Source: Granulibacter bethesdensis
GTDB lineage: Bacteria > Pseudomonadota > Alphaproteobacteria > Acetobacterales > Acetobacteraceae
Length of the DNA: 64,000 bases
Assembly (NCBI RefSeq): GCF_001889525.1
Contig: NZ_CP018192.1
Span: 372,001 to 436,000 of the forward strand
Direction of reading: 5' to 3'
Under the pieces are notes generated by a model that saw only the letters and a list, made by a program, of their open reading frames with translations, did not search any database and had not been told where the DNA came from. This document shows positions 22,312 through 42,599 of the stretch, piece by piece (position 1 is the stretch's first letter; each line of letters begins with the position of its first letter). The position numbers and the translations under genes are program-made.

Positions 22312-22388
22312 TGGTCGGAGTGAGAGGATTCGAACCTCCGGCCCCTGCGTCCCGAACACAGTGCTCTACCAGGCTGAGCTACACTCCG
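22312..22388 (-). tRNA. tRNA-Pro (anticodon CGG)
   Basis: On the minus strand a 77-base cloverleaf begins CGGAGTG and ends CACTCCG, discriminator A, and an encoded CCA (22312-22314). The D arm TAGCTCAGCCTGG, anticodon loop TTCGGGA with anticodon CGG (22354-22352), and T arm GGTTCGAATCC are all present. It reads CCG proline codons, frequent in this GC-rich genome. Confidence 0.97.
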
Positions 22389-22609: not shown

Positions 22610-23950
22610 TCAATGATGGTTCAGGTTGGCTCGCAGGTCTGGTATCCACTTTGATACATCCCCGGCATGCTGGCACATCTTGGGTACAAAATGTACTGTT
22701 TCATCATAGATGTAACCGTAATCATCAAGAATGCTCAGCCGGAGTAGATCCTTGCGGGGAATAGCTATGCCTGAGCAGTTAGCTGCTGCTGCGCGGTTGG
22801 AGAGAACACGCATTTCTACTGATCGAGCATGTCCCCAGGACGCCCCCGTGATAAGTGGAACGATTATGAAAGCCGACGCTACAGAAGGCGCAAATTGTCC
22901 GGGAAGGCAGTCCAATGCATATATTGCGATGCCGATAAAGAAAGGCACCAACATAGGTGCTTCGTGAAAATCGTCAAATGCCCATGCGACTCCCAGGTTT
23001 TCTCTGCCAACGGTAAATTCTGCCGTCCACAATAACGGTATTACGGTTAATACAGCACCAAGGCGTTTTTCTATTGTGTTAAAGCTCAGGGAAAGGGTGA
23101 ATAGAAACGCCCAGATTATAAGTGAGATTGCTCCTGCAATGAGGGCAAACGACTCATTTTGATTTCCAAATCCACCCCCGATCATTTTGGTGAAATAAAT
23201 CAGGTGTTCAAAAATGCTGGTAACCTTTTCTGATTTTGTAATATGTATATTAGGCACAAGCATAGTCAGCCATACAGCAACAAGAAAAAGAATGGCATGT
23301 AACAAGCCAATCAACAGGCCCTTGCGTATTTCTTTGGAGCGTAGCGAGATCATGATAAAATGTGCGCCACTTGCAAGCCACAGAGCGCCGCCCTGAGCTT
23401 CAGATCCTGTTGCAAGCAGGCATATAATGAAAATGGCAGGGTAGGCGCGGAAACCATAGCGTTCGATCAATAGAAGCGAGCATGCCAGCATAGCTAGATC
23501 TAGATACCACCATATCTGGAAGCTCCATAGCAGGTAGCTTGTCTGTGATGGATTGAGAAGTGGCAGGGTAACGGTCAGAATGGTCAGGAATGGATAGGTC
23601 TTTATGATGGTTGATTGACGAAGTGCAAACCAAAGCATGATACCACTCGACAGCAGAAGAATAGCATTTTCATAAATAAGGGCTTTCATCCAAATTCCAG
23701 TCGCTTTCAAAGTTGCTAAAGCGACAAATAGATGAAAAGCAATGAGATGTTCGTTGCTGCGGGCCTTGATAAGATCAATTATGGTTCCATTTTCATTAGA
23801 AAAGAAATTTATATATCGCAGAAAACCATAAGAATCATTTGATGGCCATATCGGCCCATAATGATAAACCCATGCAAATAAAATAATTCCGGTGATAGAA
23901 AAAGAACTTAAAAATATTATTTTATGGAATTTATTTTCTATTTGATTCAT
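22610..23950 (-). CDS. Polytopic membrane protein of unknown function, lower GC than neighbours
   Basis: A 446-residue inner-membrane protein with about ten hydrophobic segments, including FLSSFSITGIILFAWVYHYG near the N-terminus. The loop after the first segment carries SNDSYGFLRYINFF and the next RSNEHLIAFHLF, acidic and polar loop residues reminiscent of membrane glycosyltransferases of the GT-C type. That comparison is weak. Codon use is visibly more AT-rich than adjacent genes, suggesting transfer. It stands between tRNA-Pro and a LOG-family gene without operon partners. Confidence 0.6.
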   Translation of the reverse strand: MNQIENKFHKIIFLSSFSITGIILFAWVYHYGPIWPSNDSYGFLRYINFFSNENGTIIDLIKARSNEHLIAFHLFVALATLKATGIWMKALIYENAILLLSSGIMLWFALRQSTIIKTYPFLTILTVTLPLLNPSQTSYLLWSFQIWWYLDLAMLACSLLLIERYGFRAYPAIFIICLLATGSEAQGGALWLASGAHFIMISLRSKEIRKGLLIGLLHAILFLVAVWLTMLVPNIHITKSEKVTSIFEHLIYFTKMIGGGFGNQNESFALIAGAISLIIWAFLFTLSLSFNTIEKRLGAVLTVIPLLWTAEFTVGRENLGVAWAFDDFHEAPMLVPFFIGIAIYALDCLPGQFAPSVASAFIIVPLITGASWGHARSVEMRVLSNRAAAANCSGIAIPRKDLLRLSILDDYGYIYDETVHFVPKMCQHAGDVSKWIPDLRANLNHH

Positions 23951-28829: not shown

Positions 28830-29372
28830 TTATTTTACATTTTTACTGATATAATCTTTGAGATTACCAAGACCGGCCTTGATCATCGAGGTCATGGCAC
28901 TGACGGCGGCGGCATCGTTCAGATTATCCGGCGGCTCATTGCCGGTATCGCCACGGTAGAAGCGGCCATCCCAGGTGATTTTCGATCCGTTGCCATCCGG
29001 CGTGACCGTCAGCTTCACGTTATAGGAGCTGACCGGCAGAGCGGTAACATCGTCATCGACGCGCCGCCAGCCGATCTGTTTGGCATTCTCGTCAATGAAA
29101 TCCAGACCTTCGACAATCTTTTTGCCGGATTTCAGGGTCAGGGTGCGCTCCTGCCCCTGATCCTTGTCGTTTTTGAAAGTGACTGCGGTGAACTGGGAAT
29201 CCCATTTACCGACTCCACCGAAGTCCTTGACGATCGCCCACACCTTGTCAGGCGGGGCCGACACGGTGACGGATTCGTCCACCTTTTGCGGCGTGGGGCC
29301 GTGCGCATGCGTGGTGAGGGGCGAAATCAGGGAAACGCCGAGAATCGCGCCCATAAAAAGCCGTCTTTTCAT
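28830..29372 (-). CDS. mxaD: MxaD-like SRPBCC periplasmic protein
   Basis: A 180-residue protein with an export signal (MKRRLFMGAILGVSLI, cleavage near THA-HG) and an SRPBCC/polyketide-cyclase-like fold. The family block VSAPPDKVWAIVKDFGGVGK is clear. In Methylobacterium, MxaD aids electron transfer between methanol dehydrogenase and cytochrome cL. Here it lies divergently from mxaF rather than at the end of the cluster, separated by 280 bases, so it could share a regulatory region. The ATG at 29372 is the first with a signal peptide after it; a frame extending to 29435 was not used. A strong terminator follows. Confidence 0.85.
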   Translation of the reverse strand: MKRRLFMGAILGVSLISPLTTHAHGPTPQKVDESVTVSAPPDKVWAIVKDFGGVGKWDSQFTAVTFKNDKDQGQERTLTLKSGKKIVEGLDFIDENAKQIGWRRVDDDVTALPVSSYNVKLTVTPDGNGSKITWDGRFYRGDTGNEPPDNLNDAAAVSAMTSMIKAGLGNLKDYISKNVK

Positions 29373-29493
29373 CGAATAACCCTCTTGCGAAGCATGTGAG
29401 CAACACGGCTGTACGCAAGCTCGAAGAGCCCGCAAACCTCATGAAGAGGGTTGTTATTGAAAAGCAGAATAAATCGGTGTTTTTTCTATTATT

Positions 29494-29517
29494 TTATGCA
29501 TATTATGCAATTATGTG
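29494..29517. promoter_or_regulatory. TTATGCA repeats in the mxaD-mxaF divergent region
   Basis: TTATGCA occurs at 29494-29500 and 29503-29509, and TTATG again at 29511-29515. The middle part is also an inverted repeat: TGCATA, one base, TATGCA (29497-29509). The repeats lie about 150 bases before the mxaF start within AT-rich DNA. A regulator site, perhaps for the response regulator encoded downstream, is inference. Confidence 0.4.
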
Positions 29518-29652
29518 TTCTTATTTATAACTTGTTAAAAACACTATATGCTTGATTTAGACAATAAGTCCTTAATTGAATTTTGCCTCTAGGAAGTCGA
29601 CGAAACCCGTTCATACGATCCGCCCAACGAAACGGGAGGAGACGAAAAGTCG

Positions 29653-31530
29653 ATGCGCAAATCCAAAACAGGACTGCTCGCGTCTGCATCGCTCTGTGCG
29701 GTGTTGGGCGTTGCCGCTGGCGCTACGTCCGCCATGGCCGAGGACAAGCTGATCGAGCTGTCCAAGAGCAACGAAAACTGGCTGATGCCGGGCCGTACGT
29801 ATGAGGCCCAGAACTACAGCCCGCTGAAGCAGATTACCACGAAGAACGTGAAGGATCTGAAAGTCGCGTGGACTTTCTCTGATGGCGTTCTGAACGGCCA
29901 TGAAGGTGCGCCGCTGATCGTCAACAATACGATGTATGTCACGGGTCCGTTCCCCAACCGCACTTTTGCGCTGGGTCTGGACAATCCTGGCCGCATCATC
30001 TGGGAAAACAACCCGAAGCAGAGCGCCAATGCCCGTTCTGTAGCATGTTGTGACGTTGTCAATCGTGGCATGGCTTACTGGCCGGGTGACAGCAAGACCC
30101 CTGCTCTGATCTTCAAGAACCTGCTCGATGGTCGCCTGACGGCGATGAACGCCAAAACCGGCGATGTCGTTTGGCAGATGGAAAATGGCGATATCAAGGT
30201 GGGTCAGACCGAGACCCAGGCTCCTTATGTCGTGAAAGATCTCGTGATCACGGGTAGCTCCGGCGCTGAGTTGGGTGTTCGTGGTTACATCACCGCCTAT
30301 GATGTGCACACCGGTGCGCAGAAATGGCGCGCTTATGAAACTGGACCGGACTCTGATCTACTGCTGGCGAAGGATTTCAACATCCACAACCCGCAATACG
30401 GTCAATTCGGCCTCGGCACAGAGACCTGGCAGGAAGAAACCTGGAAGATCGGTGGCGGCACAAACTGGGGCTGGTATGCATATGACCCCGGCACCAACCT
30501 GATCTACTACGGCAGCGGCAACCCGGCTCCGTGGAACGCGACGATGCGCCCGGGTGACAACAAGTGGACGATGACCATCTTCGGTCGCGATGTTGACACC
30601 GGTGAAGCCAAGTTCGGCTATCAGAAGACCCCGCACGATGAGTGGGATTATGCCGGCGTCAACGTGATGATGCTGTCCGAACAGAAGGATAAGGACGGTA
30701 AGCTGCGCAAGCTTCTGACCCATCCTGACCGTAACGGTATTGTCTACACCCTCGACCGTACAAACGGCGATCTGGTTTCCGCCAACAAGATCGACGACAC
30801 CGTCAACTGGGTGAAGCATGTCGATCTGAAGACCGGTATCCCGGTTCGCGATCCTGAATACGCGACCTATATGGATCACAAGGGTCGTGACATCTGCCCG
30901 TCCGCGATGGGCTATCACAACCAGGGCTTCGACAGCTATTCTCCGGAAAAGCAGCAGTTCTTCCTGGGCGTGAACCATATTTGCATGGACTGGGAACCGT
31001 TCATGCTGCCGTATCGCGCTGGTCAGTTCTTCGTCGGTGCGACGCTGAACATGTATCCGGGTCCGAAGGGTAATCGTCAGACCTACGAAGGTCTGGGTCA
31101 GATCAAGTCCTACAACGCGATCACCGGTCAGTTCAAATGGCAGAAGATGGAACGCTTCGCTGTTTGGGGCGGCACGATGGCTACGGCCGGCAACCTGGTA
31201 TTCTATGGAACGCTTGATGGTTTCATTAAGGCTCGTAATCAGGATACCGGTGAGCTGCTGTGGAAGTTCAAGCTGCCGTCCGGCGTGATCGGTTACCCGA
31301 TCACCTATGAACACAAGGGCACGCAGTATGTCGCCATCTACTACGGTGTTGGTGGCTGGCCCGGTGTTGGTATGGTGTTCGACCTGAACGATCCGTCTGC
31401 CGGTCTCGGTGCGGTTGGCGCCTTCAAGGAACTGGCACACTATACCCAGCAGGGTGGTGGCGTGTTCGTGTTCTCCCTGGGTGGCAAAGGCCCGTATGAC
31501 GATCCGAAGGTTGGCGAGTACGCCAACTAA
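29653..31530 (+). CDS. mxaF: Methanol dehydrogenase large subunit (calcium/PQQ type)
   Basis: Periplasmic PQQ enzyme that oxidises methanol to formaldehyde and passes electrons to cytochrome cL. The 625-residue protein has a signal peptide ending ATSAMA (about residue 29) and an eight-bladed propeller. Key residues are present: vicinal Cys132-Cys133 (SVACCDVV), Glu206 ([11 protein letters not shown]), Asn290 (GSGNPAPWN) and the catalytic base Asp332 in [10 protein letters not shown]. In the usual mature numbering these are C103/C104, E177, N261 and D303. The Asp-Tyr-Ala pattern (Ala334) marks the calcium MxaF form; lanthanide XoxF has Asp there. GGGAGGAG precedes the ATG. A stem-loop follows the stop. 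Confidence 0.97.
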
Positions 31531-31550
31531 TCGGGTTCGCCTGTGAAGAA

Positions 31551-31582
31551 AGACCCGCCATGATATTCTTCGTGGCGGGTCT
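31551..31582 (+). other. Perfect 10-bp stem-loop between mxaF and mxaJ
   Basis: AGACCCGCCA (31551-31560) pairs exactly with TGGCGGGTCT (31573-31582) around a 12-base loop, 20 bases after the mxaF stop. No U tract follows, so it may partly stop transcription or protect the mxaF message, giving more mxaF than downstream genes. Confidence 0.55.
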
Positions 31583-31611
31583 CACAGCTTCAGCAATCGA
31601 ATGGTTTTACG

Positions 31612-32505
31612 ATGCGCTATCGTCCTATGAACAACCGGCGTCGCTACGTTGCGGCAGCAGCTTTTGGTGCATTGTTTGCAATGTCTGCCACAGCGCGGCC
31701 CGCATGGTCTGATACGACTGGAAGCGCGTCTTCCGGCCAGGATACGCAGAAGACCTTGCGCATCTGTGCCTCTACCAAACAGGCTCCGTTCTCCGAACCT
31801 GGAGCAACAGGTATTGAGAACAAGATTATGACTGCGGTTGCGGAGGCAATGGGCCGCAAACCGGTTTTTGTCTGGACTGATCGGCCTGCTATTTATGCTG
31901 TGCGTGACCAGCTTTACAAAAATACCTGCGATGTGGTTGCGGGCCTGGATGAAGGCGATGATCGTGTTCTGACGACGAAGCCCTATTATCGGTCCAGCTA
32001 TGTTTTTATCACTCGTGAGGATGGTAAGGCGCAGCCCAAGGACTGGAAGGATCCAGCGTTCGAGCATATCTCCAAAATTGCCGTTGCGTTTGGCTCGCCC
32101 GGCGAGCTGATGCTGCGTCAGATCGGTAAATACGAAGATAATCTCAGCTATCAGCAGTCTTTGGTTGGTTTTAAATCTCCTAGAAACCAGTATATTCAGG
32201 TTCCATCCGACAAAATCGTTTCCGAGGTTGCATCCGGTCATGCTGATCTCGGAGTTGCGTTTGATCCGGAGGTAGCACGCTACGTCAAGGCGTCTCCGGT
32301 AAAGCTGCGCGTGACTGTCATTCCCGATAATGCCACTCGCTCTGATGGCCAGAAAGTGCCGATGCATTATAGCGAGGTCATGGGCGTGCGCCGGGATGAT
32401 GCGGCGTTGCAGGCAGAGCTCGATGGTGCTCTGGAAAAGGCGAAGCCACAGATCGCCAATATTCTCAAGGACGAGAATATTCAGACTCTCGCGCCTAATT
32501 CCTGA
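31612..32505 (+). CDS. mxaJ: MxaJ, methanol oxidation solute-binding-like protein
   Basis: A 297-residue periplasmic protein with a signal peptide (about residues 10-33, ending ARPAWS) and a type 2 periplasmic binding fold. Blocks KTLRICASTKQAPFSEPGA and DQLYKNTCDVVAGLDEGDDR fit MxaJ. It is required for assembly or activity of methanol dehydrogenase in methylotrophs, possibly as a chaperone. It lies 81 bases after mxaF beyond a stem-loop. Either the ATG at 31612 or the one at 31627 could start it. Confidence 0.93.
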   Translation: MRYRPMNNRRRYVAAAAFGALFAMSATARPAWSDTTGSASSGQDTQKTLRICASTKQAPFSEPGATGIENKIMTAVAEAMGRKPVFVWTDRPAIYAVRDQLYKNTCDVVAGLDEGDDRVLTTKPYYRSSYVFITREDGKAQPKDWKDPAFEHISKIAVAFGSPGELMLRQIGKYEDNLSYQQSLVGFKSPRNQYIQVPSDKIVSEVASGHADLGVAFDPEVARYVKASPVKLRVTVIPDNATRSDGQKVPMHYSEVMGVRRDDAALQAELDGALEKAKPQIANILKDENIQTLAPNS

Positions 32506-32571
32506 GAACTCTTAAAGACCGATAGCTGTGTAATATCGAGACGCACAGCCGAGAAGAAATGGAACGAACCC

Positions 32572-33189
32572 TTGACGTTTAAACATATCCTGAATGGAAC
32601 TCTGGCTGCCTCCCTGTTAGCGGCTGCTATTGCGGTTTCTGTGCCTGCGCATGCGGGTGATACGCCTGTTCCGCCCAGCGCCCTCAAATTCACCAACACA
32701 GTCAGTGGTGATCCACTAGATTTGAACGACTCCTTGCCAGATGGGCGTGATACGCCTGCCGTCAAGCAATTCCTTCAGACCGGGCATAACCCGTATAATC
32801 TGATTGAATCCTGCCTTCCCAATGGCAAAAGCCTGTGGCTTTCTGCCTGTTCCGGTTGTCATGGTGGAGAGATGGAGGGCAAGGTTGGTCCCTCTCTGGC
32901 TGATGACTACTGGACTTATGAGACGAACAAGACCGACCAGGGCTTGTTCTCCACGATCTTCGGTGGTGCGAACGGTATGATGGGTCCGCATAATCAGGAT
33001 CTGACCATGGATCAGATTCTGCGCGTGATGGCCTGGATTCGTTTCCACTATGAAGGCCCGAAGCACACGGATGAAGACATGCCGTGGCTGACGGACGCTC
33101 AGCGCAAGAGCTTCAAGCTCTTCAAGAAGGAAGATGAGGCCAAGTTCCCCGCGAGCGAGGACGCAAAAGCCTGCAAGCTTCCCGGCTAA
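32572..33189 (+). CDS. mxaG: Cytochrome cL (cytochrome c-L, methanol dehydrogenase electron acceptor)
   Basis: A periplasmic monohaem cytochrome that takes electrons from methanol dehydrogenase. The 205-residue protein has a signal peptide ending VPAHA (residue 28) and one haem motif CSGCH (Cys93, Cys96, His97). A methionine-rich loop GGANGMMGPH may supply the axial ligand. The start is a TTG at 32572 with GGAACGA upstream; an ATG at 32559 is out of frame. The leader is strikingly similar to that of mxaI. Confidence 0.94.
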   Translation: MTFKHILNGTLAASLLAAAIAVSVPAHAGDTPVPPSALKFTNTVSGDPLDLNDSLPDGRDTPAVKQFLQTGHNPYNLIESCLPNGKSLWLSACSGCHGGEMEGKVGPSLADDYWTYETNKTDQGLFSTIFGGANGMMGPHNQDLTMDQILRVMAWIRFHYEGPKHTDEDMPWLTDAQRKSFKLFKKEDEAKFPASEDAKACKLPG

Positions 33190-33218
33190 CCATCCAAACC
33201 AAATCAGGAGGAAGTCAT

Positions 33219-33530
33219 ATGTTCAAGAGAATCATCCAGGGAACCCTGGCAGCGGCCCTGATCGCCGGTGCGGCTGGTGCTTCCGTTGCTCATGCCGCTT
33301 ATGACGGCACGCATTGCAAGGCGCCGGGCGTGTGCTGGGAGCCGGAACCCGGTTATCCGGCAATCCTGAAAGGGTCCAAATATGACCCGCATCATGATCC
33401 GAAAGAACTGGCGAAACAGCAGGCTGCTCTGGACGCTCAGGAAGCCCGCAACAAGTTGCGTGTCGAAAACTTTGTCAAGACCGGCAAGTTCGAGTTCGAT
33501 GTGAACAAGCTACAGGGTCAGGGTAACTGA
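33219..33530 (+). CDS. mxaI: Methanol dehydrogenase small subunit
   Basis: The beta subunit of the methanol dehydrogenase heterotetramer. The 103-residue precursor has a signal peptide ending VAHA and a short mature chain starting AYDGTHCKAPGVCWEPEPGY, with two cysteines for the conserved disulfide and a lysine-rich helix after it. Length and composition match MxaI. AGGAGG lies before the ATG. Presence of this subunit supports the calcium-type enzyme, since XoxF systems lack it. Confidence 0.96.
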   Translation: MFKRIIQGTLAAALIAGAAGASVAHAAYDGTHCKAPGVCWEPEPGYPAILKGSKYDPHHDPKELAKQQAALDAQEARNKLRVENFVKTGKFEFDVNKLQGQGN

Positions 33531-33544
33531 GGTCTCTGACTTTT

Positions 33545-34588
33545 ATGTCAGGATCAATGGCCGACGCCAGCGCCGAGGCTTTTAGCCTCGGTGGTTGGCG
33601 GGAGCGTGCGATTGCGTTCGAAGCGGCAGTGTCTGGTGCCGTTCTGGGGCAGCAACGTGTCGTTCGTCTTATGACCATCGCTATTTTGGCACGGGGCCAC
33701 GTGCTGCTCGAAGGCGATGTGGGTGTCGGTAAAACCACTCTTTTAAGAGCCGTTGCAAGAGCGATTGGCGGTCCATACGAGCGTGTCGAAGGCACGATCG
33801 ATCTGATGCCTGGCGATCTGATTTACCATGCCGCCATTGGCGATGACGGTAAGCCCAGGCTGGAGCCGGGGCCGGTGTTGCATCATGGTGAAGATCTTGC
33901 CGTTTTTTTCTTCAATGAAATCAATCGTGCCCGTCCGCAGGTGCATTCCCTGCTGCTGCGTCTGATGGCTGAGCGAAGTGTAACGGCTTTTAATCGCGAA
34001 ATTCTGTTGCCTCATCTTCTGGTTTTTGCAGACAGAAACCGTCTGGAGCGTGAAGAAACCTATGAGCTGCCTGCCGCGGCCCGCGATCGTTTCTTTATGG
34101 AAATTCCAGTTGAAACCCCTGCCGATGATACCATTCGGCGACAATTGATCTTCGATCGTCGTTTCCATGATGTGGACAATCTGATCGGTTCGGTTGAGAC
34201 CAATATTCTGCCTCATACCACACTGGATGGGGTGGCAAGGGCTATTCAGGCCCGTATCCATTCTTCAGATGCGTTCGAAGCGTATGTGGTACGGCTCTGG
34301 AATGCTCTGCGTTATCCTGGTCAGCATGGCATCATGCTGGAGGGTGTCGATATAGATCGTCTGGTGCAGGGAGGCGCCAGCCCGCGTGGTCTCAGCTATC
34401 TGGTGCGTGCGGCCAGGGTCAATGCTTTCCTCAATGGGCGCGATATGGTCGTGCCGGAAGATCTGCGTGCCGTGTTTATGGAATCGATGGCGCATCGCAT
34501 CTTCCTTGATCCACTCTATGAACTTCGACGGGAGACTCTGGTGCCGGCGCTGTGCCGCCAGGTGCTAGAGCGCGTGCCGGCCCCGTGA
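33545..34588 (+). CDS. mxaR: MoxR-family AAA ATPase MxaR
   Basis: A 347-residue cytosolic AAA+ ATPase. Walker A GDVGVGKTTLLRAVAR and Walker B VFFFNEINRARPQVHSLLLR are clear, followed by sensor motifs in LVFADRNRLEREETYELPAA. MoxR proteins act with von Willebrand A partners as maturation machines, and MxaR is needed for active methanol dehydrogenase. It begins 14 bases after mxaI. The stop overlaps the probable GTG start of mxaS. Confidence 0.95.
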   Translation: MSGSMADASAEAFSLGGWRERAIAFEAAVSGAVLGQQRVVRLMTIAILARGHVLLEGDVGVGKTTLLRAVARAIGGPYERVEGTIDLMPGDLIYHAAIGDDGKPRLEPGPVLHHGEDLAVFFFNEINRARPQVHSLLLRLMAERSVTAFNREILLPHLLVFADRNRLEREETYELPAAARDRFFMEIPVETPADDTIRRQLIFDRRFHDVDNLIGSVETNILPHTTLDGVARAIQARIHSSDAFEAYVVRLWNALRYPGQHGIMLEGVDIDRLVQGGASPRGLSYLVRAARVNAFLNGRDMVVPEDLRAVFMESMAHRIFLDPLYELRRETLVPALCRQVLERVPAP

Positions 34589-35460
34589 GCGACGCAATGC
34601 CGGCGTTCGATGACGCCGCGTTGCCTGATCTGGCCTATAAAGTGCGTTGGCGAGTGCCGGGGGCTAGACCCGGCAGTCACCGGGGCCGCCAGAATGGCAG
34701 CGGAGGGGAGTTGAGGGGATATGTTCCCTTCTGGTCCTCCCCGGACACACGGCGTATCGACTTTGCCCGCTCGGCGAAGGAGCCGGATGGCACGCTTATG
34801 GTCCGCCAGATTGAGCAGCGCAGCGCCATTGATGTCTACGTTATAGCCGATCTGTCGGCGTCGATGGATCCGACCGAGGATGGTGCACGCCGCGCCGAAA
34901 TTGCCAAACTGGTGAAGGTTCTGTCACAATCAGCCCGCAGAAGCGGGGATGCGTTCGGCTTTATCGGTTTCGGAGAAACTGTAATGCGGGACGGCCTTCT
35001 CAAGGCTTCCCGCGTCAGGGGAGCAGAGCAGGCTGTTCTTGAGCGTTTGCAGACGGAGCCGCTGACGGCACGCAACATCAATGGCCTGAAGGATGTCGCT
35101 GCCTACCTGGGTACCCGTCGGCGTCTGGTGTTGCTGGTGTCTGATTTTCATGCCCCCCGATCAGTGCTGGAACCGTCATTGGCGGCGTTGGGGCGTCATG
35201 ACATCGTCCCCATTGTTTTGCGGGATCGGCGCGAGCACGAATTGCCATCGGGTTTTGGCTTTATCCATGTGCGGGACGTGGAAACCGGGCAGCCGCGCAG
35301 TCTGCTGTTGCGTCCGGCTTTGCGTCGACGATGGTCGCAGGCGGCAGCCGAGAATATGCGGATGCTGGGACAGTTGTTGTCTACATATGGCCGGCCTCCT
35401 TTCTTCGCTTGGGACCGGATCAATTATGAACGCTTGAGCGAACATTTGCTGGCAGGCTGA
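34585..35460 (+). CDS. mxaS: MxaS, DUF58 protein of methanol dehydrogenase maturation
   Basis: A 291-residue DUF58-type protein with a VWA-like fold. The block DVYVIADLSASMDPTEDGAR resembles a degenerate MIDAS (DLSAS), and LTARNINGLKDVAAYLGTRR follows. It is the expected partner of the MoxR ATPase. The start is taken as GTG 34585, which overlaps the mxaR stop in GTGA; the ATG at 34597 is the alternative. It is followed after one base by mxaA. Confidence 0.9.
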   Translation: MSDAMPAFDDAALPDLAYKVRWRVPGARPGSHRGRQNGSGGELRGYVPFWSSPDTRRIDFARSAKEPDGTLMVRQIEQRSAIDVYVIADLSASMDPTEDGARRAEIAKLVKVLSQSARRSGDAFGFIGFGETVMRDGLLKASRVRGAEQAVLERLQTEPLTARNINGLKDVAAYLGTRRRLVLLVSDFHAPRSVLEPSLAALGRHDIVPIVLRDRREHELPSGFGFIHVRDVETGQPRSLLLRPALRRRWSQAAAENMRMLGQLLSTYGRPPFFAWDRINYERLSEHLLAG

Positions 35461-35461
35461 G

Positions 35462-36430
35462 ATGAATGCATTTTCGCACAGATCGGCGGTTGCGTTGCTG
35501 TTGGCAATAACAGCTGCGACCGTACATCCATCCTGTTCCGTCGGGGCCGCCGACATGGCGCATCATGATGCCGCCATAAAAGGTGCCTCTCTGGCATTTC
35601 ATCCACCTGGCCGTCTGTTCGGCTATTATATTGGGGATGTTCTGGACAGTACGGTCGATATAACCCTTGCAAAGGGTGAGATACTCGACCCGTCTACTGT
35701 GCCGACACCCGGTGATATCAATTACTGGCTGACACTGCGCAGGGTCGATGTCATCCGGCATAAGCTTGCAGATGGTGGAGAACAGGTTCGGCTGACTCTA
35801 CAATATCAGACGTTTTACGATCCGTTGGAACCAAAGAAGTTGCCGGTTCCCGGCTTTACGCTCGTGATCCATGGGGCGGGAGCGGACAGAAAACTCAGCA
35901 CGCCGACATGGCAGTTCTTAAGTTCACCTATCCGCGAAGTCAGCCCTGGCGAAGATGTCGATGCAAGTTTTCTCCAGCCGGACCACTGGCCGCCATTGCC
36001 GGATGTCACCATCCCACGCAGGGCTACGCTGGCGGCGCTGGGTGTGGCGCTGCTGTCTCTGATCTGGCTCGGCTGGCTCTCGGGCTGGTTCGGCACGGTG
36101 TTGCGTCGACGGTCACGGCCTTTTGGATTTGCGGTCCATCAGATTCGCCGGGAGCGTGGTCGGGAGGAAAGCGAAGCGTATCGCAACAGCCTAAAAGCCT
36201 TGCACGAAGCTTTCGACCGTACCGAAGGCGGTCTCGTTCTGGCCGAGGATGTGCCGGGTTTCGTCACCCGTCATCAGCGTTTTGTCGGATTGAAAGCAGA
36301 GATCGAGCAATTTTTTGAGGCATCAAGATGCTGCTTTTATGCCTCCGATGTTGTGCAGGCGATGCAATCTTTTCCACCGCAAGCGGTCCTGGCACTGGCG
36401 CGTCAACTCAGCCGGTCTGAACGCGCATGA
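35462..36430 (+). CDS. mxaA: MxaA, methanol dehydrogenase calcium-insertion factor
   Basis: A 322-residue protein with an N-terminal signal segment (SAVALLLAITAATVHPS), a periplasmic domain and one membrane segment near residues 185-205 (LAALGVALLSLIWLGWLSGW), leaving a cytosolic tail. In Methylobacterium MxaA, MxaK and MxaL are needed to insert calcium into methanol dehydrogenase. It overlaps mxaC in ATGA. Identification rests on position and topology plus partial similarity. Confidence 0.88.
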   Translation: MNAFSHRSAVALLLAITAATVHPSCSVGAADMAHHDAAIKGASLAFHPPGRLFGYYIGDVLDSTVDITLAKGEILDPSTVPTPGDINYWLTLRRVDVIRHKLADGGEQVRLTLQYQTFYDPLEPKKLPVPGFTLVIHGAGADRKLSTPTWQFLSSPIREVSPGEDVDASFLQPDHWPPLPDVTIPRRATLAALGVALLSLIWLGWLSGWFGTVLRRRSRPFGFAVHQIRRERGREESEAYRNSLKALHEAFDRTEGGLVLAEDVPGFVTRHQRFVGLKAEIEQFFEASRCCFYASDVVQAMQSFPPQAVLALARQLSRSERA

Positions 36431-37416
36431 TGCATCTCGCCATTGATAGACCATGGGTCTTGCTGGCGGGATTGCTGGCATTGTGGCCGTTATTGGGCGC
36501 TGGCTTCCGCCGGGTCGCTTTTCCATCTGTCATGGTGGTTCCGGCGGATCGTCTCTCTGCTGTGGTGGCCTGGGTTCTGCGGGTGCTGGGGGCGATTGCG
36601 ATCATTGCGGTGGTATTGGGGCTGGCAGGTCTGCATCGGGAAAAGCTGACGATCCAGAAAGTCGGCCAGGGTGCACAGATCATGCTGTTGATTGATCGCA
36701 GCATCAGCATGGACCAGACCTTCGATAATCAGACACCGAATGCAGCCAAGGAATCGAAGACGGATGCGGCCATTCGGCTGGTGAAAGATTTTTTCCGTCA
36801 ACGCCAGCATGACCGTTTTGGTGTTGTCGCTTTTTCAACGTCTCCTATTCTGGCAATGCCTTTGACCGAGCATCGTGCAGCGGTAGAGGCTTCTCTGGAT
36901 GCCATGCGGCGTCCGGCCATTGCCCGCACCAATATCGGTCGTGGCCTGTCGCTAGCTTTCGCGCAGCTTCAGAACAGTTCTCCAGATGCGGCGCGTGTGG
37001 TTCTGTTCGTATCAGACGGCGCAGGTGTCATCGATGGAGAATTGGAGCCTCGGCTTCATGCCGAGGCCGTAAAGCTCGGCGTACATATCTATTATTTATA
37101 TCTCCGCACGGAAGGCGATCCAGGCTTGCATGCGACAGGCGAAACGGCGGATGCCGATGCCCCTGCCGCGTTGGATGCATGGTTTTCCGGTCTGGGTGTG
37201 CCATACAAAGCGTTCGAGGCTGATAATCCGAATGCCCTGAAATCCGCTGTTGATACCATCAATCGACTGGAAGCAGCGCCTATCGTCTACAATGAATATG
37301 TGCCGCGTGAGGATTACAACCGCTTCTGCTACGGTATTGCAGCGCTGGTTCTCGCGGTTTTATGCATGGCACGATTTCTGGAACGCGATCTGTATCGCGG
37401 CAGGAGGGCGGCATGA
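36427..37416 (+). CDS. mxaC: MxaC, VWA-domain membrane protein
   Basis: A 329-residue protein with two N-terminal membrane segments, a von Willebrand A domain with MIDAS IMLLIDRSISMDQTFDN, and a C-terminal membrane segment ending at the basic LERDLYRGRRAA. Such BatA-like proteins pair with MoxR ATPases. It is part of the maturation set. The ATG overlaps the mxaA stop, and its own stop overlaps mxaK. Confidence 0.9.
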   Translation: MMHLAIDRPWVLLAGLLALWPLLGAGFRRVAFPSVMVVPADRLSAVVAWVLRVLGAIAIIAVVLGLAGLHREKLTIQKVGQGAQIMLLIDRSISMDQTFDNQTPNAAKESKTDAAIRLVKDFFRQRQHDRFGVVAFSTSPILAMPLTEHRAAVEASLDAMRRPAIARTNIGRGLSLAFAQLQNSSPDAARVVLFVSDGAGVIDGELEPRLHAEAVKLGVHIYYLYLRTEGDPGLHATGETADADAPAALDAWFSGLGVPYKAFEADNPNALKSAVDTINRLEAAPIVYNEYVPREDYNRFCYGIAALVLAVLCMARFLERDLYRGRRAA

Positions 37417-37988
37417 CAAGCAGAATACAATGGTTGACGCCCGGCAGAATCAGAATCGCTTTGGCATGGCTGGTGTTCGGCGGAGCTTTAGGGGTTACTG
37501 GATGGCAGGGGATGCACTGGCAGCGTGCCCTGCGTGATACGCATCTTATGAAGCAGTTGCGGTATCGCAATGATGTGACCATTCCCGCCAATGCGGCTCC
37601 CGAGGTGTATGTAGCCCGGGGACACTATCTGCTGGAAATGGGCAAATACGAGGATGCGCGGTCGGTACTGGAGCATATGCAGCATGCTCCCCCGCATCTG
37701 CGTGCGATGCTGTCTTATGATATTGCCAATACCATGATGCGACGGGCTATCGACGAGATTGACAATGATGCTCTGGAGAAAAGCATTCCGCTGGTGATCA
37801 GTGCCAAGCAGGATTATCGTCGCGCGTTGAAAGATGATCCCCTGAACTGGGATATGAAGTACAATCTGGATGTGGCCATGCGGATGGTGCGGGATTTCCC
37901 CGCTGCCGAGCAGGAAGAAGGTGATTCCTTGCCTGCGACCAAAAAATTGTGGCCCAACATGCCGGGTCAGCCGCAGGGATTACCCTGA
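37413..37988 (+). CDS. mxaK: MxaK, methanol dehydrogenase maturation protein
   Basis: A 191-residue protein with one N-terminal membrane segment (ALAWLVFGGALGVTGWQGM) and a helical, TPR-like periplasmic part (YVARGHYLLEMGKYEDARSV; DIANTMMRRAIDE). It belongs to the calcium-insertion group. The ATG at 37413 overlaps the mxaC stop; a longer frame from 37362 is not needed. The stop touches the mxaL start. Confidence 0.9.
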   Translation: MTSRIQWLTPGRIRIALAWLVFGGALGVTGWQGMHWQRALRDTHLMKQLRYRNDVTIPANAAPEVYVARGHYLLEMGKYEDARSVLEHMQHAPPHLRAMLSYDIANTMMRRAIDEIDNDALEKSIPLVISAKQDYRRALKDDPLNWDMKYNLDVAMRMVRDFPAAEQEEGDSLPATKKLWPNMPGQPQGLP

Positions 37989-39073
37989 TGGGAAGGGCGC
38001 GCATTCTTTCCTGGCCGGCCGCACGTGATCCACGGTTCTGGTTGAGCGCGGGTGCTATTTTTCTGTTGGTGTTGGCAGTCATTTTGCCGCGGGTTTACCA
38101 TACAGGCCCGTCTTACCGCATGGTTGCCGTGGTCGATATCACGGGCAGTATGAATACGCGGGATCAGATGCTGAATGGTCAAGTCGTCAGCCGTCTGGAC
38201 AAGGTGCGGCATGATCTGAGTGATTTTGTCGGGCGACTGCCGTGTGGATCCCAGTTCGGGCTGGCGATTTTTACCGAGCGTCGCCCCTATCTGGTGGTTG
38301 AACCCGTTGAAACCTGCGCGAATTTTCCAGCCCTGGACGATGAGATCACGCATTTGGACTGGCGCATGGCGTGGGAAGGAGACAGCCATATTACAGAGGG
38401 GCTGTACCGCTCGCTCGTTCTTGCGCATGATCTGAATGCCGATCTGATGTTCATGACGGATGGGCAGGAAGCCCCCCCTCTGCCATGGACTGGGCCGCCG
38501 CCTTTCGACGGAAAGAAAAGCATTGTCAAAGGGCTGATCGTCGGTGTCGGGGGGCTGACGCCTACACCGATTCCCAAATACGACGACCATGGCCGTCAGG
38601 TCGGATTCTGGAGACCGCAGGATATTCCGGCAGAAAACGAGGCGGCACCGCCGCCGCCGGATGCGGAAAACCGTGAAGGATACAACCCCCGTAATGCGCC
38701 TTTTGGCAATGTTGGCGGTAATGCATCCGGCTCATTATCAGCGGTGGATGAAAAACACTTGCAATCACTGGGAACAATTACCGGCCTCGACTATTTTCAC
38801 CTCGGCGCAGGTGATCTGAATGGTGTCGCCGAAAAGTGGATGACGAAACGTCCGGTCAGGCAACTGGTGGAAATTTCGTGGATTCCTGCCCTGCTGTCGC
38901 TTGTGGCGTTGGGTTTATGTTATCTTGTCCTTCCCGTATGGGGCGTGGTCGCAGTCTGGCGATCCCGTGCGCAGGCCCGGCGGCGGCTGGAGGACAGAAA
39001 TGCAGGACGAGACAGCAATAAGGCGTCCTCTGTGGCGGTCAATCCTGCTCCCCAGGCCCTTTACCGCGCTTAA
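37988..39073 (+). CDS. mxaL: MxaL, VWA-domain membrane protein
   Basis: A 361-residue protein with an N-terminal membrane segment (WLSAGAIFLLVLAVILP), a VWA domain with the MIDAS motif AVVDITGSMNTRDQML, and a C-terminal membrane segment (LLSLVALGLCYLVLPVWGV). It forms part of the calcium-insertion machinery with MxaA and MxaK. The ATG overlaps the mxaK stop (TGATG), and its last 74 bases overlap the histidine kinase gene. Confidence 0.92.
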   Translation: MGRARILSWPAARDPRFWLSAGAIFLLVLAVILPRVYHTGPSYRMVAVVDITGSMNTRDQMLNGQVVSRLDKVRHDLSDFVGRLPCGSQFGLAIFTERRPYLVVEPVETCANFPALDDEITHLDWRMAWEGDSHITEGLYRSLVLAHDLNADLMFMTDGQEAPPLPWTGPPPFDGKKSIVKGLIVGVGGLTPTPIPKYDDHGRQVGFWRPQDIPAENEAAPPPPDAENREGYNPRNAPFGNVGGNASGSLSAVDEKHLQSLGTITGLDYFHLGAGDLNGVAEKWMTKRPVRQLVEISWIPALLSLVALGLCYLVLPVWGVVAVWRSRAQARRRLEDRNAGRDSNKASSVAVNPAPQALYRA

Positions 39074-40436
39074 GCATTCTATCAAGGCCCGTCTGATCGT
39101 GCTGCCGCTGGTTATTCTCGCGGCAGCAATCCTGTTTGTCATCGGCGTGGTCCTGTTCGATTCCAACCAGCGGATCGAGCAGGAAATTCAGTCCGGCACA
39201 GAATTGGGCGACATGCTGATTCACTATGCGTTGCGTAGCCTGGGCCATTCTGGCGATCAGGATGCTGAGATCGAGCATTTGATTTCTGATCTCTCGAACA
39301 TTCGCCATGTGATTTTTATCTATGTGCCTTCCGGTGCTACGCCGCCTCATGCGGCTCCACCGCTTGTGGGGAGCGGGGCACCCGCATGGTTTGCGGGGTG
39401 GTTTCATGTTCCACGTCCCGTTCGTTCCTTCCCGGTGCAGATTGAAGGCGTATTTCGTGGCGATATCGTTATGGTCGGCGATCCTCACAACGAAATTGCC
39501 GAAATCTGGGAGGAGCTTAAATTTCTGCTCGGATTACTGGCGTGTGTATCCTTGATGATCATGGCGGCCATGTTCTGGACCGCCCGCTATGCGCTGAGGC
39601 CGATCAGCACGCTGGCGGAGGGGTTGCAGCGTATGCGAGCCGGGCAGTTCGACGCGCTTCCACCTCTTTATGTGACGGAGCTGAAGCCGATTGGGGAGCG
39701 CTTCAATCAGCTTGCCGAAACGCTCCGTGCGGTGCGCGGCGATAATGAGCGTCTGCTGGAACAGATGGTTTCGTTGCAGGAAACGGAACGTCGTGAACTG
39801 GCTCGTGAACTGCACGATGATTTTGGCGCTACCTTGTTTGGCGCTCGTGCAGAGCTGGCTACCTTGTTGCTGGAAGCCCGCAGGCAGGGCGAGGCAGGGC
39901 AACTCATTATCGAGCGCGCTCATGCTGTCGCAAGATTGATCGATCAGATTCAACAGCAGAATGGCCGTATTCTGGAACGGCTGCGCCCGATGGCGCTGGA
40001 TCACATGGGGATTGCCGATGCTATTCGGGATCTGATGACCCAATGGCAGGATCGCTATCCAGAGATGGAGTGGTGGCTTTCCATGCCACGTGATCTCAGG
40101 ATAGAAAATGATCAGATCAACCTGGTTCTCTACCGGACTGTGCAGGAATGCCTGACCAATGCGGTGCGGCATTCCTCTGCCGAGCAGGTCAATGTCACTC
40201 TGTCATGGCATGATGGAGTGTCAGGACAGGGCTCATCGCGCCGTCTGCAGCTTCTGGTAACAGATGATGGCACTGGCCTGCCGGAGCATTTCCGGATGGG
40301 ATTTGGATTGTTGGGAATGACGGAGCGGTTGCGGCAATGCGGGGGCGAGTTGAAAGTGCGGAACAATCATCCGCATGGCACCGTGGTGGAAGCAGTTATG
40401 CCGGTTGCAGCCGTGCAGAAGGAAACAGCGGAATGA
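39000..40436 (+). CDS. NarL-type sensor histidine kinase, methanol oxidation regulation
   Basis: A 478-residue membrane kinase. Two N-terminal membrane segments flank a periplasmic sensor region, followed by a HAMP-like linker (ALRPISTLAEGLQRMRAG), HisKA_3 ERRELARELHDDFGATL (His272) and an HATPase domain with Asn387 (ECLTNAVRHSS) and DDGTG (Asp422). GGAGG precedes the ATG at 39000 inside mxaL, giving a 74-base overlap and likely coupling. It resembles MoxY/MxaY of Paracoccus, which control methanol dehydrogenase; the signal is unknown. Confidence 0.88.
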   Translation: MQDETAIRRPLWRSILLPRPFTALKHSIKARLIVLPLVILAAAILFVIGVVLFDSNQRIEQEIQSGTELGDMLIHYALRSLGHSGDQDAEIEHLISDLSNIRHVIFIYVPSGATPPHAAPPLVGSGAPAWFAGWFHVPRPVRSFPVQIEGVFRGDIVMVGDPHNEIAEIWEELKFLLGLLACVSLMIMAAMFWTARYALRPISTLAEGLQRMRAGQFDALPPLYVTELKPIGERFNQLAETLRAVRGDNERLLEQMVSLQETERRELARELHDDFGATLFGARAELATLLLEARRQGEAGQLIIERAHAVARLIDQIQQQNGRILERLRPMALDHMGIADAIRDLMTQWQDRYPEMEWWLSMPRDLRIENDQINLVLYRTVQECLTNAVRHSSAEQVNVTLSWHDGVSGQGSSRRLQLLVTDDGTGLPEHFRMGFGLLGMTERLRQCGGELKVRNNHPHGTVVEAVMPVAAVQKETAE

Positions 40437-41077
40437 CGCAGCCGATGATCAAGGTTCTGGTTGTGGAGGATCATCCGCTGGTGCGTGCCGGATGCCATCG
40501 CGTGCTGAGCCGCCGGGACACGCTGGAAGTGCTGGAGGCCAGTTCCGGTCAGGATGGTGTTGCCATCAATGCTGCACAGAAACCGCATGTCATCATCCTC
40601 GACATTAACCTGCCGGATAGCAATGGCTTCGATCTGCTTGATGATCTGCTGAGTGATAATCCTGATGTGCGTATTATCGTTCTCAGCATGTATGGCGATA
40701 CGCATTTCGTGCGCCGTGCCCTTGATCGGGGCGTCAAGGGATATGTCACCAAGAACGACGATCCGGAGACAATCCTGCTGGCCATTGATCAGGTGATGAA
40801 TAACGGCGTCTATCTGGGGCAGGTGGTGGCGCAGTCTCTGGCTCTGGGAAGGCTGATGCCGGATTCCAATGTTGCAGCTGAGCTGTCTGTCAAAGAAAAG
40901 CGTGTGCTGGAACTGCTCGGCGATGGGTTGAGCCTGTCGGAAATCGCTTACGAGCTGGGCGTCAGCTACAAGACAGTGGCCAATATGAGTGGCGCTCTGC
41001 GCACCCGGCTTAAAATTCGCACCGGGGCTGCGCTGGTCAAGTTCGCAGTGGAATGGAAGGCGCGTACCCAGCCGTAA
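40433..41077 (+). CDS. LuxR/NarL-type response regulator, methanol oxidation regulation
   Basis: A 214-residue response regulator. The receiver has Asp57 as phospho-acceptor (VIILDINLPDSNGFDLL), acidic VVEDH at the N-terminus, and Lys in GYVTKND. The C-terminal LuxR-type helix-turn-helix is KEKRVLELLGDGLSLSEI plus YELGVSYKTVANMSGALRTR. It overlaps the kinase in ATGA. It may correspond to MxaB of Methylobacterium or MoxX of Paracoccus, both needed for methanol dehydrogenase expression; which is not decided by sequence. Confidence 0.9.
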   Translation: MTQPMIKVLVVEDHPLVRAGCHRVLSRRDTLEVLEASSGQDGVAINAAQKPHVIILDINLPDSNGFDLLDDLLSDNPDVRIIVLSMYGDTHFVRRALDRGVKGYVTKNDDPETILLAIDQVMNNGVYLGQVVAQSLALGRLMPDSNVAAELSVKEKRVLELLGDGLSLSEIAYELGVSYKTVANMSGALRTRLKIRTGAALVKFAVEWKARTQP

Positions 41078-41111: not shown

Positions 41112-42599
41112 TTATTGCCGCCCGTATGTGTCTTCCAGGCGGACGATATCATCTTCACCCAGATAGGCGCCGGACTGTACCTCGATCAGGGCCAGCGGGA
41201 TATGACCGGGATTGGACAGGCGATGCACAGTGCCGAGCGGCAGATAGATGCTTTCGTTCTCCCGCACCAGAATGTCTTCCTCATCGCGGGTCACGATGGC
41301 TGTGCCTGCGACAACGACCCAATGTTCGGCCCGATGGTAATGTTTCTGAAGGCTTAGACGATGACCGGGGGAAACGACAATACGCTTCACCTGGAAACGG
41401 TCACTCTGGATCAGGCTCTCATAAAAGCCCCAGGGGCGATAGATACGGTTATGGCTGGCTGCTTCGGGTTTGCCTGAGCGTTTCAGGCGATCGACGATCT
41501 TTTTCACATCCTGCGCATGATCGCGATGCATGGCCAGCACGGCATCTTTTGTCGTGACGATCACCGCATCTTTCAGCCCGATCACGGCGGTGACGATGCC
41601 GTCAGACCGCACATAGCAGTTGCTGGCGCTTTCCAGCATGGCATCGCCCTGAACGACATTGCCGTGATCATCCTTATCGCCCAGTTCCCATAATGCGCTC
41701 CAGCTGCCAACATCGGACCAGCCGATATCGGCCGGAACCACGGCAGCACGGCTGGTTTTCTCGGCGACGGCATAATCAAGGCTGATATCCGGGCATGCCA
41801 TGAACGGTTCCCGGGCCAGTCGCAGGAAATCGAGATCCTGCGTACGCCCGGCCACGGCGGCGGTCACGGCTTCCAGTACGGCGGGGGCGTGCTGGCGCAT
41901 TTCTTCGATCAGTGTGCGGGCCGTAAAGACGAACATCCCTGAATTCCACAGATGCTGGCCGGAACTGACCAGTGCCTGAGCGGTGGTGGTATCGGGCTTT
42001 TCCAGAAAGCGGCGCAGGCGATGCACACCGGAAAGGTCAGTGATCGAATCGCCGACTTCGATATAGCCATATCCGGTTTCCGGAGCGGTAGGCTGCATGC
42101 CGAATGTGACGAAATATCCGGCCTTCGCCGCAGCCACGGCCTTGCCAAGCGCCGCAAGCAGAGCATCCGGCCGGGTGACGGAGTGATCGGCTGCCAGCAT
42201 CCACAGCACCGAATCGGGATTGGTTTCAGCGGCAAGCAAGGCAGCTGCCAAAATCGCCGGTGCACTATTGCGCCCGCATGGCTCCAGAACGATGCGTACG
42301 TTCTCGACTCCGGCCGATCGCGCCTGCTCGGCAATCAGAAAGCGATGATCCTGATTACACACCAGAATGGGAGGGGCGAATTGCGGTCCTTGCGCCCGGT
42401 GCATGGTGTCCTGGATCAGGGAATGGTCCCCTGTCAGATTCCAGTATTGCTTGGGAAACGACTCGCGGGAGACGGGCCACAGACGGGTTCCTGTGCCTCC
42501 CGACAGGATCACCGGGATAATGGCTTCCGGCGGAGAGAGCGGCTGGAAAGGCGCTTTGAGGGAGTCCGGGCCGCTTTCAGTCTGATCCATGGGAACCAT
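41112..42599 (-). CDS. manC: Mannose-1-phosphate guanylyltransferase / mannose-6-phosphate isomerase
   Basis: A 495-residue bifunctional enzyme making GDP-mannose for surface polysaccharides. The nucleotidyltransferase signature PVILSGGTGTRLWPVSRESF and PKQY are at the N-terminus, and the C-terminal cupin PMI domain has SPGHRLSLQKHYHRAEHW with metal-binding histidines. A start at the ATG for MDQTESG (42590) is equally likely. It is convergent with the response regulator gene and belongs to no visible polysaccharide operon. Confidence 0.95.
   Translation of the reverse strand: MVPMDQTESGPDSLKAPFQPLSPPEAIIPVILSGGTGTRLWPVSRESFPKQYWNLTGDHSLIQDTMHRAQGPQFAPPILVCNQDHRFLIAEQARSAGVENVRIVLEPCGRNSAPAILAAALLAAETNPDSVLWMLAADHSVTRPDALLAALGKAVAAAKAGYFVTFGMQPTAPETGYGYIEVGDSITDLSGVHRLRRFLEKPDTTTAQALVSSGQHLWNSGMFVFTARTLIEEMRQHAPAVLEAVTAAVAGRTQDLDFLRLAREPFMACPDISLDYAVAEKTSRAAVVPADIGWSDVGSWSALWELGDKDDHGNVVQGDAMLESASNCYVRSDGIVTAVIGLKDAVIVTTKDAVLAMHRDHAQDVKKIVDRLKRSGKPEAASHNRIYRPWGFYESLIQSDRFQVKRIVVSPGHRLSLQKHYHRAEHWVVVAGTAIVTRDEEDILVRENESIYLPLGTVHRLSNPGHIPLALIEVQSGAYLGEDDIVRLEDTYGRQ

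Follow-up and report, generated by a model that had tools for sequence, protein, structure and literature searches.

A histidine kinase and NarL-type regulator from an unexpected clade close the calcium-type methanol dehydrogenase operon of Granulibacter bethesdensis

We have analysed a stretch of 64,000 nucleotides from Granulibacter bethesdensis (contig NZ_CP018192.1, positions 372,001 to 436,000; hereafter the window) and have focussed on its positions 28830-41077, where a divergent mxaD precedes the genes mxaF-J-G-I-R-S-A-C-K-L; mxaL runs without a gap into a histidine kinase gene, which a gene for a NarL-type response regulator follows (Table 1). The source genome is a single contig of 2.69 Mb. 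Judged from its sequence, the MxaFI methanol dehydrogenase operon at this locus is complete and Ca-dependent, and its kin are the operons of Methylocapsa acidiphila and Acidomonas. Genes were called with NCBIfam and Pfam profiles, and other mxa loci were compared by tblastn. MxaI, cytochrome cL and MxaJ are all present according to the profile searches, and mxaR, S, A, C, K and L have tblastn matches at the corresponding positions of other mxa clusters, which bears out the classical gene order that an earlier note on this DNA had described. The letters of these six genes we assign by gene order, aided by an annotated Paracoccus locus. The calcium type claimed in the same note also stands, as MxaF carries DYA, i.e., Ala at the lanthanide Asp position; the three other pyrroloquinoline quinone (PQQ) dehydrogenases of the genome that score over the cut-off have DYD. 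The host, a probable acetic acid bacterium according to the note, does belong to the Acetobacteraceae, the same family as Acidomonas methanolica.

The mxa core is not new. The accessible part of one report describes the G. bethesdensis cluster as very similar to those of other methylotrophs, and also reports methanol growth (PMC2680597). The unusual part is the regulator pair, of which no mention was found in the accessible parts of the literature on these mxa genes (PMC2680597, PMC4766906, PMC6194010), an earlier mention being possible.

The first genes of the operon are separated by 81 (mxaF-J), 66 (mxaJ-G), 29 (mxaG-I) and 14 bp (mxaI-R), and from mxaR through the regulator each gene overlaps the next or is separated from it by 1 bp. 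The kinase, the ATG of which is preceded by GGAGGA, overlaps mxaL by 74 bp, and kinase and regulator share a 4 bp ATGA overlap. Because of this close spacing and these overlaps, one transcript ending in the regulator is predicted. The term self-regulating, used in the earlier note, could be drawn from these overlaps only. Gene order, strands and the overlap between kinase and mxaL are identical in the three Granulibacter genomes examined. The usual mxaD-E-H-B tail is indeed replaced: the neighbours of the locus are a DUF1643 gene beyond mxaD and manC, convergent on the 3′ end of the operon, so that mxaE, mxaH and mxaB are all absent from the flanks. A search of the whole genome for MxaH, run without a positive control, gave no match. 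The open reading frame listed for mxaD extends to 29435, the gene itself probably being the shorter one of Table 1; its divergent position upstream of mxaF is as first noted.

Table 1. Features of the mxa locus, in window coordinates
Feature	Position	Strand	Basis
mxaD, Polyketide_cyc2 protein (likely gene)	28830..29372	-	Pfam PF10604; 36-54% to mxaD of other mxa loci among the matches listed
mxaD/mxaF divergent intergenic region, 280 bp, looks AT-rich	29373..29652	.	presumed mxaF and mxaD promoters, from sequence
mxaF, Ca-type methanol dehydrogenase large subunit	29653..31530	+	TIGR03075, 669 bits; DYA motif
mxaJ	31612..32505	+	TIGR03870, 406 bits, above cut-off
mxaG, cytochrome cL, start uncertain	32572..33189	+	TIGR03872, 216 bits, above cut-off
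mxaI, methanol dehydrogenase small subunit	33219..33530	+	PF02315, 145 bits
mxaR, MoxR-type AAA ATPase	33545..34588	+	51-71% to mxaR elsewhere among the matches listed
mxaS, likely GTG start 34585	34585..35460	+	tblastn vs other mxa loci; start read from sequence
mxaA	35462..36430	+	tblastn vs other mxa loci
mxaC, VWA domain	36427..37416	+	domain search; tblastn vs other mxa loci
mxaK, TPR-like (under Pfam cut-offs), likely ATG 37413	37413..37988	+	tblastn vs other mxa loci
mxaL, VWA domain, likely ATG 37988	37988..39073	+	domain search; tblastn vs other mxa loci
Sensor histidine kinase, HAMP+HisKA_3+HATPase_c, likely ATG 39000	39000..40436	+	Pfam; membrane helices judged by eye
NarL-type response regulator, Response_reg+GerE, likely ATG 40433	40433..41077	+	Pfam

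This is, in other words, a known operon that carries a regulator from an unexpected clade. The kinase tree was built from 57 of 84 matches and the regulator tree from 63 of 110, near-copies and short or frame-broken rows having been dropped (among them L145, one of the 18 TonB-linked loci described below). The window pair groups with the mxa-linked pair of M. acidiphila in the kinase tree (support 100/97), in the regulator tree (100/98) and in the joined tree (100/99). The wider kinase clade (100/99) holds 23 rows, of which 19 form a TonB group (17 of them from outside Granulibacter) and 4 are mxa-linked, and the window regulator falls inside a clade of TonB-linked Acetobacteraceae regulators (98/93). 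The pair of Arboricoccus pini, also beside mxaF, belongs to the same larger clade, and its regulator groups with four TonB-linked ones (96/85). That the mxa-linked pairs of the window, M. acidiphila and Arboricoccus form a single clade was not rejected on the joined data (p=0.46) by the approximately unbiased (AU) test, for which the groups were named after seeing a first tree. A derivation of the pair from MxaB was tried and rejected, the nine MxaB rows (99/95) standing apart from the window regulator across a deep split (100/100). On these trees the pair is a further regulator lineage on mxa, neither MxaB nor the MxaYX of Paracoccus type, and the picture suggests that mxa clusters acquired sensor pairs more than once.

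The structural genes tell of the same kinship. A quick tree of nine proteins from 35 loci, with support from the Shimodaira-Hasegawa-like approximate likelihood ratio test, places M. acidiphila outside Acidomonas plus Granulibacter (values of 100 and 99). The mxa locus of M. acidiphila B2, the nearest outside Acetobacteraceae among the sampled loci, has mxaF at 81% identity, the ten genes mxaF-L in order, a divergent mxaD and orthologues of the kinase (42%) and regulator (49%). It differs in having a YVTN-type gene after mxaD, in place of the DUF1643 gene of the window, and in that the pair lies between mxaD and mxaF; the position 3′ of mxaL instead of 5′ of mxaF is what sets the window apart. 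The earlier idea of a simply rearranged mxaD and a merely appended pair is not supported, as M. acidiphila has the same divergent mxaD and the orthologous pair 5′ of mxaF. Acidomonas methanolica, sister in the structural-gene tree and with the same F-L order, differs from the window in that neither mxaD nor a kinase-regulator pair was found nearby, its best MxaD match (40%) being on another contig.

How common is this arrangement? MxaI was found in 4 of 397 Acetobacteraceae genomes (the G. bethesdensis source genome, two congeners and Acidomonas), and a sample of 385 genomes from the class yielded 2, the source genome being one of them. For gene order we compared 81 other mxaI loci (the best 80 of 89 from one search plus one from the class sample), a tally that omits the window and L015, L016 and L013, which are congeners or a duplicate of the Acidomonas locus L053. 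Both ends could be assessed in 62 of them, with mxaF, mxaL and more than 2.5 kb visible on each side. The arrangement is rare. In 58 of these 62 loci mxaD lies 3′ of mxaL; it is divergent upstream in two (M. acidiphila and a Methylophaga), upstream on the same strand in one, and was not found in one (Acidomonas). Searching these loci with the window kinase at a floor of 60 bits, which distant kinases may escape, we saw a kinase on the 5′ side in 14 loci and at 1.5-2.2 kb past mxaL in another 16, whereas 32 showed none; in no case did a kinase lie as close as 200 bp to mxaL. Methylophaga shares the layout of M. acidiphila, mxaD being divergent and the pair 5′ of mxaF, although the kinase there is only remotely related (27%, on a long branch). 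Kinase-regulator pairs adjoin mxaF in further methylotrophs too, Paracoccus (mxaZYX) and Hyphomicrobium among them, most of these pairs being of other lineages. The Methylobacterium/Methylorubrum clusters, with their mxaD-E-H-B tail, resemble the window in having a NarL-type regulator, the orphan MxaB, at the 3′ end; it is of another clade and has no kinase above 60 bits adjacent. Closer in ancestry are the kinases of Methylocystis and Methylosinus, which are the next relatives of the clade and also lie 3′ of mxaL, but 1.5-2.2 kb off, behind mxaD, with the regulator on the opposite strand and only 29% identity.

Within the kinase, two Glu residues just ahead of the second membrane helix are conserved throughout both sets of aligned kinases (16 of 16, with Paracoccus MxaY among them, and 15 of 15); in the window they lie at about 39489-39509 (kinase residues 164-170). 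The residue preceding the first Glu is Asp in 15 of the 16 and Asn in the window kinase, and a following Trp is present in the whole first set and lost in three of the second (L151, L152, L154). The Glu pair may sit near the site of the constitutive E147G change in MxaY of M. buryatense, a lead only; counted from Met-49 as the start, the first Glu of the kinase from a Methylomicrobium relative (L064) would fall near 146. Compared with plasmid sequences, the kinase was below 60% identity in all 600 records.

G. bethesdensis has a second, paralogous pair with a divergent TonB receptor at 2.122-2.125 Mb of the genome, in an island that reaches to ca. 2.142 Mb (L105:10124-15089, L200:746-3174, L106:182-10092). 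The kinase of this pair is 36-37% identical to the window kinase over nearly its full length. Some 6-10 kb beyond it there are genes over the cut-offs of TIGR03863, TIGR03866, TIGR03864 and TIGR03861, a make-up that is that of PedA1A2BC, which Pseudomonas putida requires to grow on low lanthanum according to the part of PMC6839425 available. The island continues with a xoxJ-like gene, which passes the cut-off of TIGR03871, a xoxG-like cytochrome, which stays below that of TIGR03874, a xoxF-like dehydrogenase with DYD ca. 13 kb from the pair, and pqqE; two further DYD-type dehydrogenases are encoded elsewhere in the genome. By this gene content, it is probably an island for lanthanide uptake and use.

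The paralogue is not isolated in its family. Kinase matches at E<=1e-30 occur in 47 of 394 Acetobacteraceae genomes, and 18 genomes outside Granulibacter score at least 264 bits, the next one reaching 172. A TonB receptor is divergent from the pair in 17 of these 18 high-scoring loci (L137-L154), and in the remaining one (L137) the contig ends just past the kinase. The fetched stretch contains PQQ-linked genes in 8 of the 18: seven have a YVTN gene of the kind associated with PQQ ATP-binding cassette (ABC) transporters, and the eighth has pqqE and a PQQ-ABC permease; several other TonB loci stop at contig ends. The window pair itself has no adjoining TonB receptor, its neighbours being mxaL and manC. 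Among the publications listed on the subject, none tied a TonB-linked Acetobacteraceae kinase to lanthanides. Two more distant kinases from the class (L161, L168) are divergent from a PQQ-dehydrogenase-like gene (37-38% to those of G. bethesdensis).

What might the pair do? The operon may be switched by metal supply, the family of the pair being often found beside a receptor of metal-uptake type. We infer a lanthanide signal and a feedback, and propose, as a reading about evenly poised, that the pair switches the operon of the Ca-enzyme on under lanthanide scarcity and reinforces itself. The kinase would be active when lanthanide is scarce, and the phosphorylated regulator would activate a presumed single transcript from mxaF to the regulator, its own genes included; the divergent mxaD may be a target as well. 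Once lanthanide is available, the kinase would stop, and a DYD enzyme encoded elsewhere would take over. There are precedents, known to us from parts of the sources, for membrane kinases in lanthanide switches, namely MxaY of M. buryatense (PMC5018670) and PedS2/PedR2 of P. putida (PMC6115532). The latter resembles the window pair, by description, as a membrane kinase with a LuxR-type regulator beside PQQ dehydrogenases.

As to its origin, a pair of TonB-module type could have joined the mxa operon in the line leading to M. acidiphila and Granulibacter, where it would provide the calcium enzyme with a switch for lanthanide scarcity whose origin is separate from MxaYX and MxaB; a sister pair in the same genome would then serve the uptake of lanthanide close to xoxF. 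Exchange may have gone in either direction. We offer this tentatively and would give it less than an even chance, since the kinases next in kinship, those of Methylocystaceae, lie close to mxa as well.

Several observations weigh against these proposals. The accessible text on the known systems states that mxaY is dispensable for mxaF expression in P. denitrificans (PMC5018670) and that the periplasmic part of PedS2 differs from that of MxaY (PMC6115532). In the window kinase HAMP and HisKA_3 are over the cut-off, but Pfam LapD_MoxY_N is far below it (E 0.056). Acidomonas has the mxa core but no such kinase (best match 26 bits), so that the pair is dispensable. A TonB receptor is also found at both lower-scoring Acetobacteraceae loci fetched (L155, L156) and at 6 of 18 class loci (one on the same strand), and the TonB link is therefore broader than the clade; the L155 receptor is even the closest to that of the G. 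bethesdensis paralogue locus (61%), yet its kinase is only 30% identical. The paralogue-locus receptor matches only siderophore/heme-type models, below cut-off, and its cargo is thus unassigned. Three of the TonB loci (L147, L151, L152) show 6.6-6.9 kb past the receptor without any PQQ-related gene. A shared regulator-binding word was sought in 12 of the 18 TonB/kinase intergenic regions, a less redundant set, and enriched words did not exceed the shuffled maxima, the best of them including purine-rich ones resembling ribosome-binding sites. Finally, the clade, here of 16 rows, is joined next by an alphaproteobacterial kinase (L157) together with those Methylocystis/Methylosinus kinases found ca. 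2 kb behind mxaL (98/97 in a second kinase tree, 100/100 in the joined tree), so that either the mxa or the TonB link may have come first.

Among other explanations, it is extremely unlikely that the pair is the classical Paracoccus-type MxaYX, transferred from its 5′ position to the 3′ end. Kinase-regulator pairs are frequent beside mxaF, and the domain plan and the two conserved Glu are as in Paracoccus MxaY. However, Paracoccus MxaY belongs to another clade, with the kinases of Hyphomicrobium, Rhodopseudomonas, Methyloceanibacter, Hansschlegelia, Nitrospirillum and Oleisolibacter (100/100), apart from the window, and union with it was rejected (AU p=1.7e-9). The joined tree does not hold the MxaY set firmly together (80/74 for five of seven) and yet separates it from the window at 100/100, and the regulators of that group, that of Paracoccus not included, fall with MxaB, also split 100/100 from the window's. 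Paracoccus mxaZYX differs in layout too, being a divergent 5′ operon with moxZ. That the TonB-linked pair of the genome was recently duplicated and the copy added to mxa within Granulibacter we regard as improbable: the trees join the window to the mxa-linked pair of M. acidiphila, and that kinship extends to the structural genes. The near full-length similarity of the paralogue speaks for such a copy, and union of the two is not rejected on kinases alone (AU p=0.09) but is weakly rejected on the joined data (p=0.037), so that recent duplication is disfavoured.

Two further explanations concern what the pair does. It could regulate mxa while sensing methanol, formaldehyde or redox state instead of lanthanide, given that no ligand is assigned to its periplasmic part; the TonB-linked and xoxF-near relatives and the precedents of MxaY and PedS2, as far as the sources go, make this rather unlikely. 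It is very unlikely, in our view, that the pair is a mere bystander and controls genes other than those of the mxa operon. The overlaps with mxaL and within the pair argue against it, as do the orthologue beside mxaF in M. acidiphila and the more distant relative beside mxaF in Arboricoccus, although regulator-site scans of the mxaD/mxaF intergenic region established no site, which a bystander would explain. Promoter and terminator scans gave counts near chance (9 vs 8.8; 15 vs 12.0).

The proposed lanthanide-scarcity switch bears on how bacteria sense lanthanides and choose between Ca and lanthanide methanol dehydrogenases. Two related sensor pairs in one genome of 2.7 Mb, one at the end of the Ca-operon and the other near a lanthanide-type enzyme and a transporter of PedA1A2BC type, make a compact test case, and the trees point to the Acetobacteraceae kinase clade as candidate metal sensors.

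Some minor observations concern the surroundings of the operon and the rest of the genome. The facing manC lies at 41112-42599, and manC matches above 100 bits occur on the minus strand beyond mxa in six Methylobacterium-type or Methylosinus loci (L034, L035, L036, L054, L058, L079), with different intervening genes. An Rfam scan of the window gave two tRNAs and nothing else. Two open reading frames without Pfam match that lie in low-GC stretches, at 7404-9170 (588 aa) and 22610-23950 (446 aa), the second adjoining tRNA-Pro (22312-22388), are possible foreign DNA. Away from the mxa cluster, at ca. 239.0-240.6 kb of the genome (L201:4976-6608), a second MxaD-like gene (43%) adjoins an MxaE-like YVTN gene (38% to Methylorubrum MxaE). 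The G. bethesdensis genome has two Fae-type (formaldehyde) genes, and none was found in Acidomonas; near the second fae gene in another Granulibacter genome there is a partial extra Fae match of 69/159 positions (G001:C1:608083-608289, L189).

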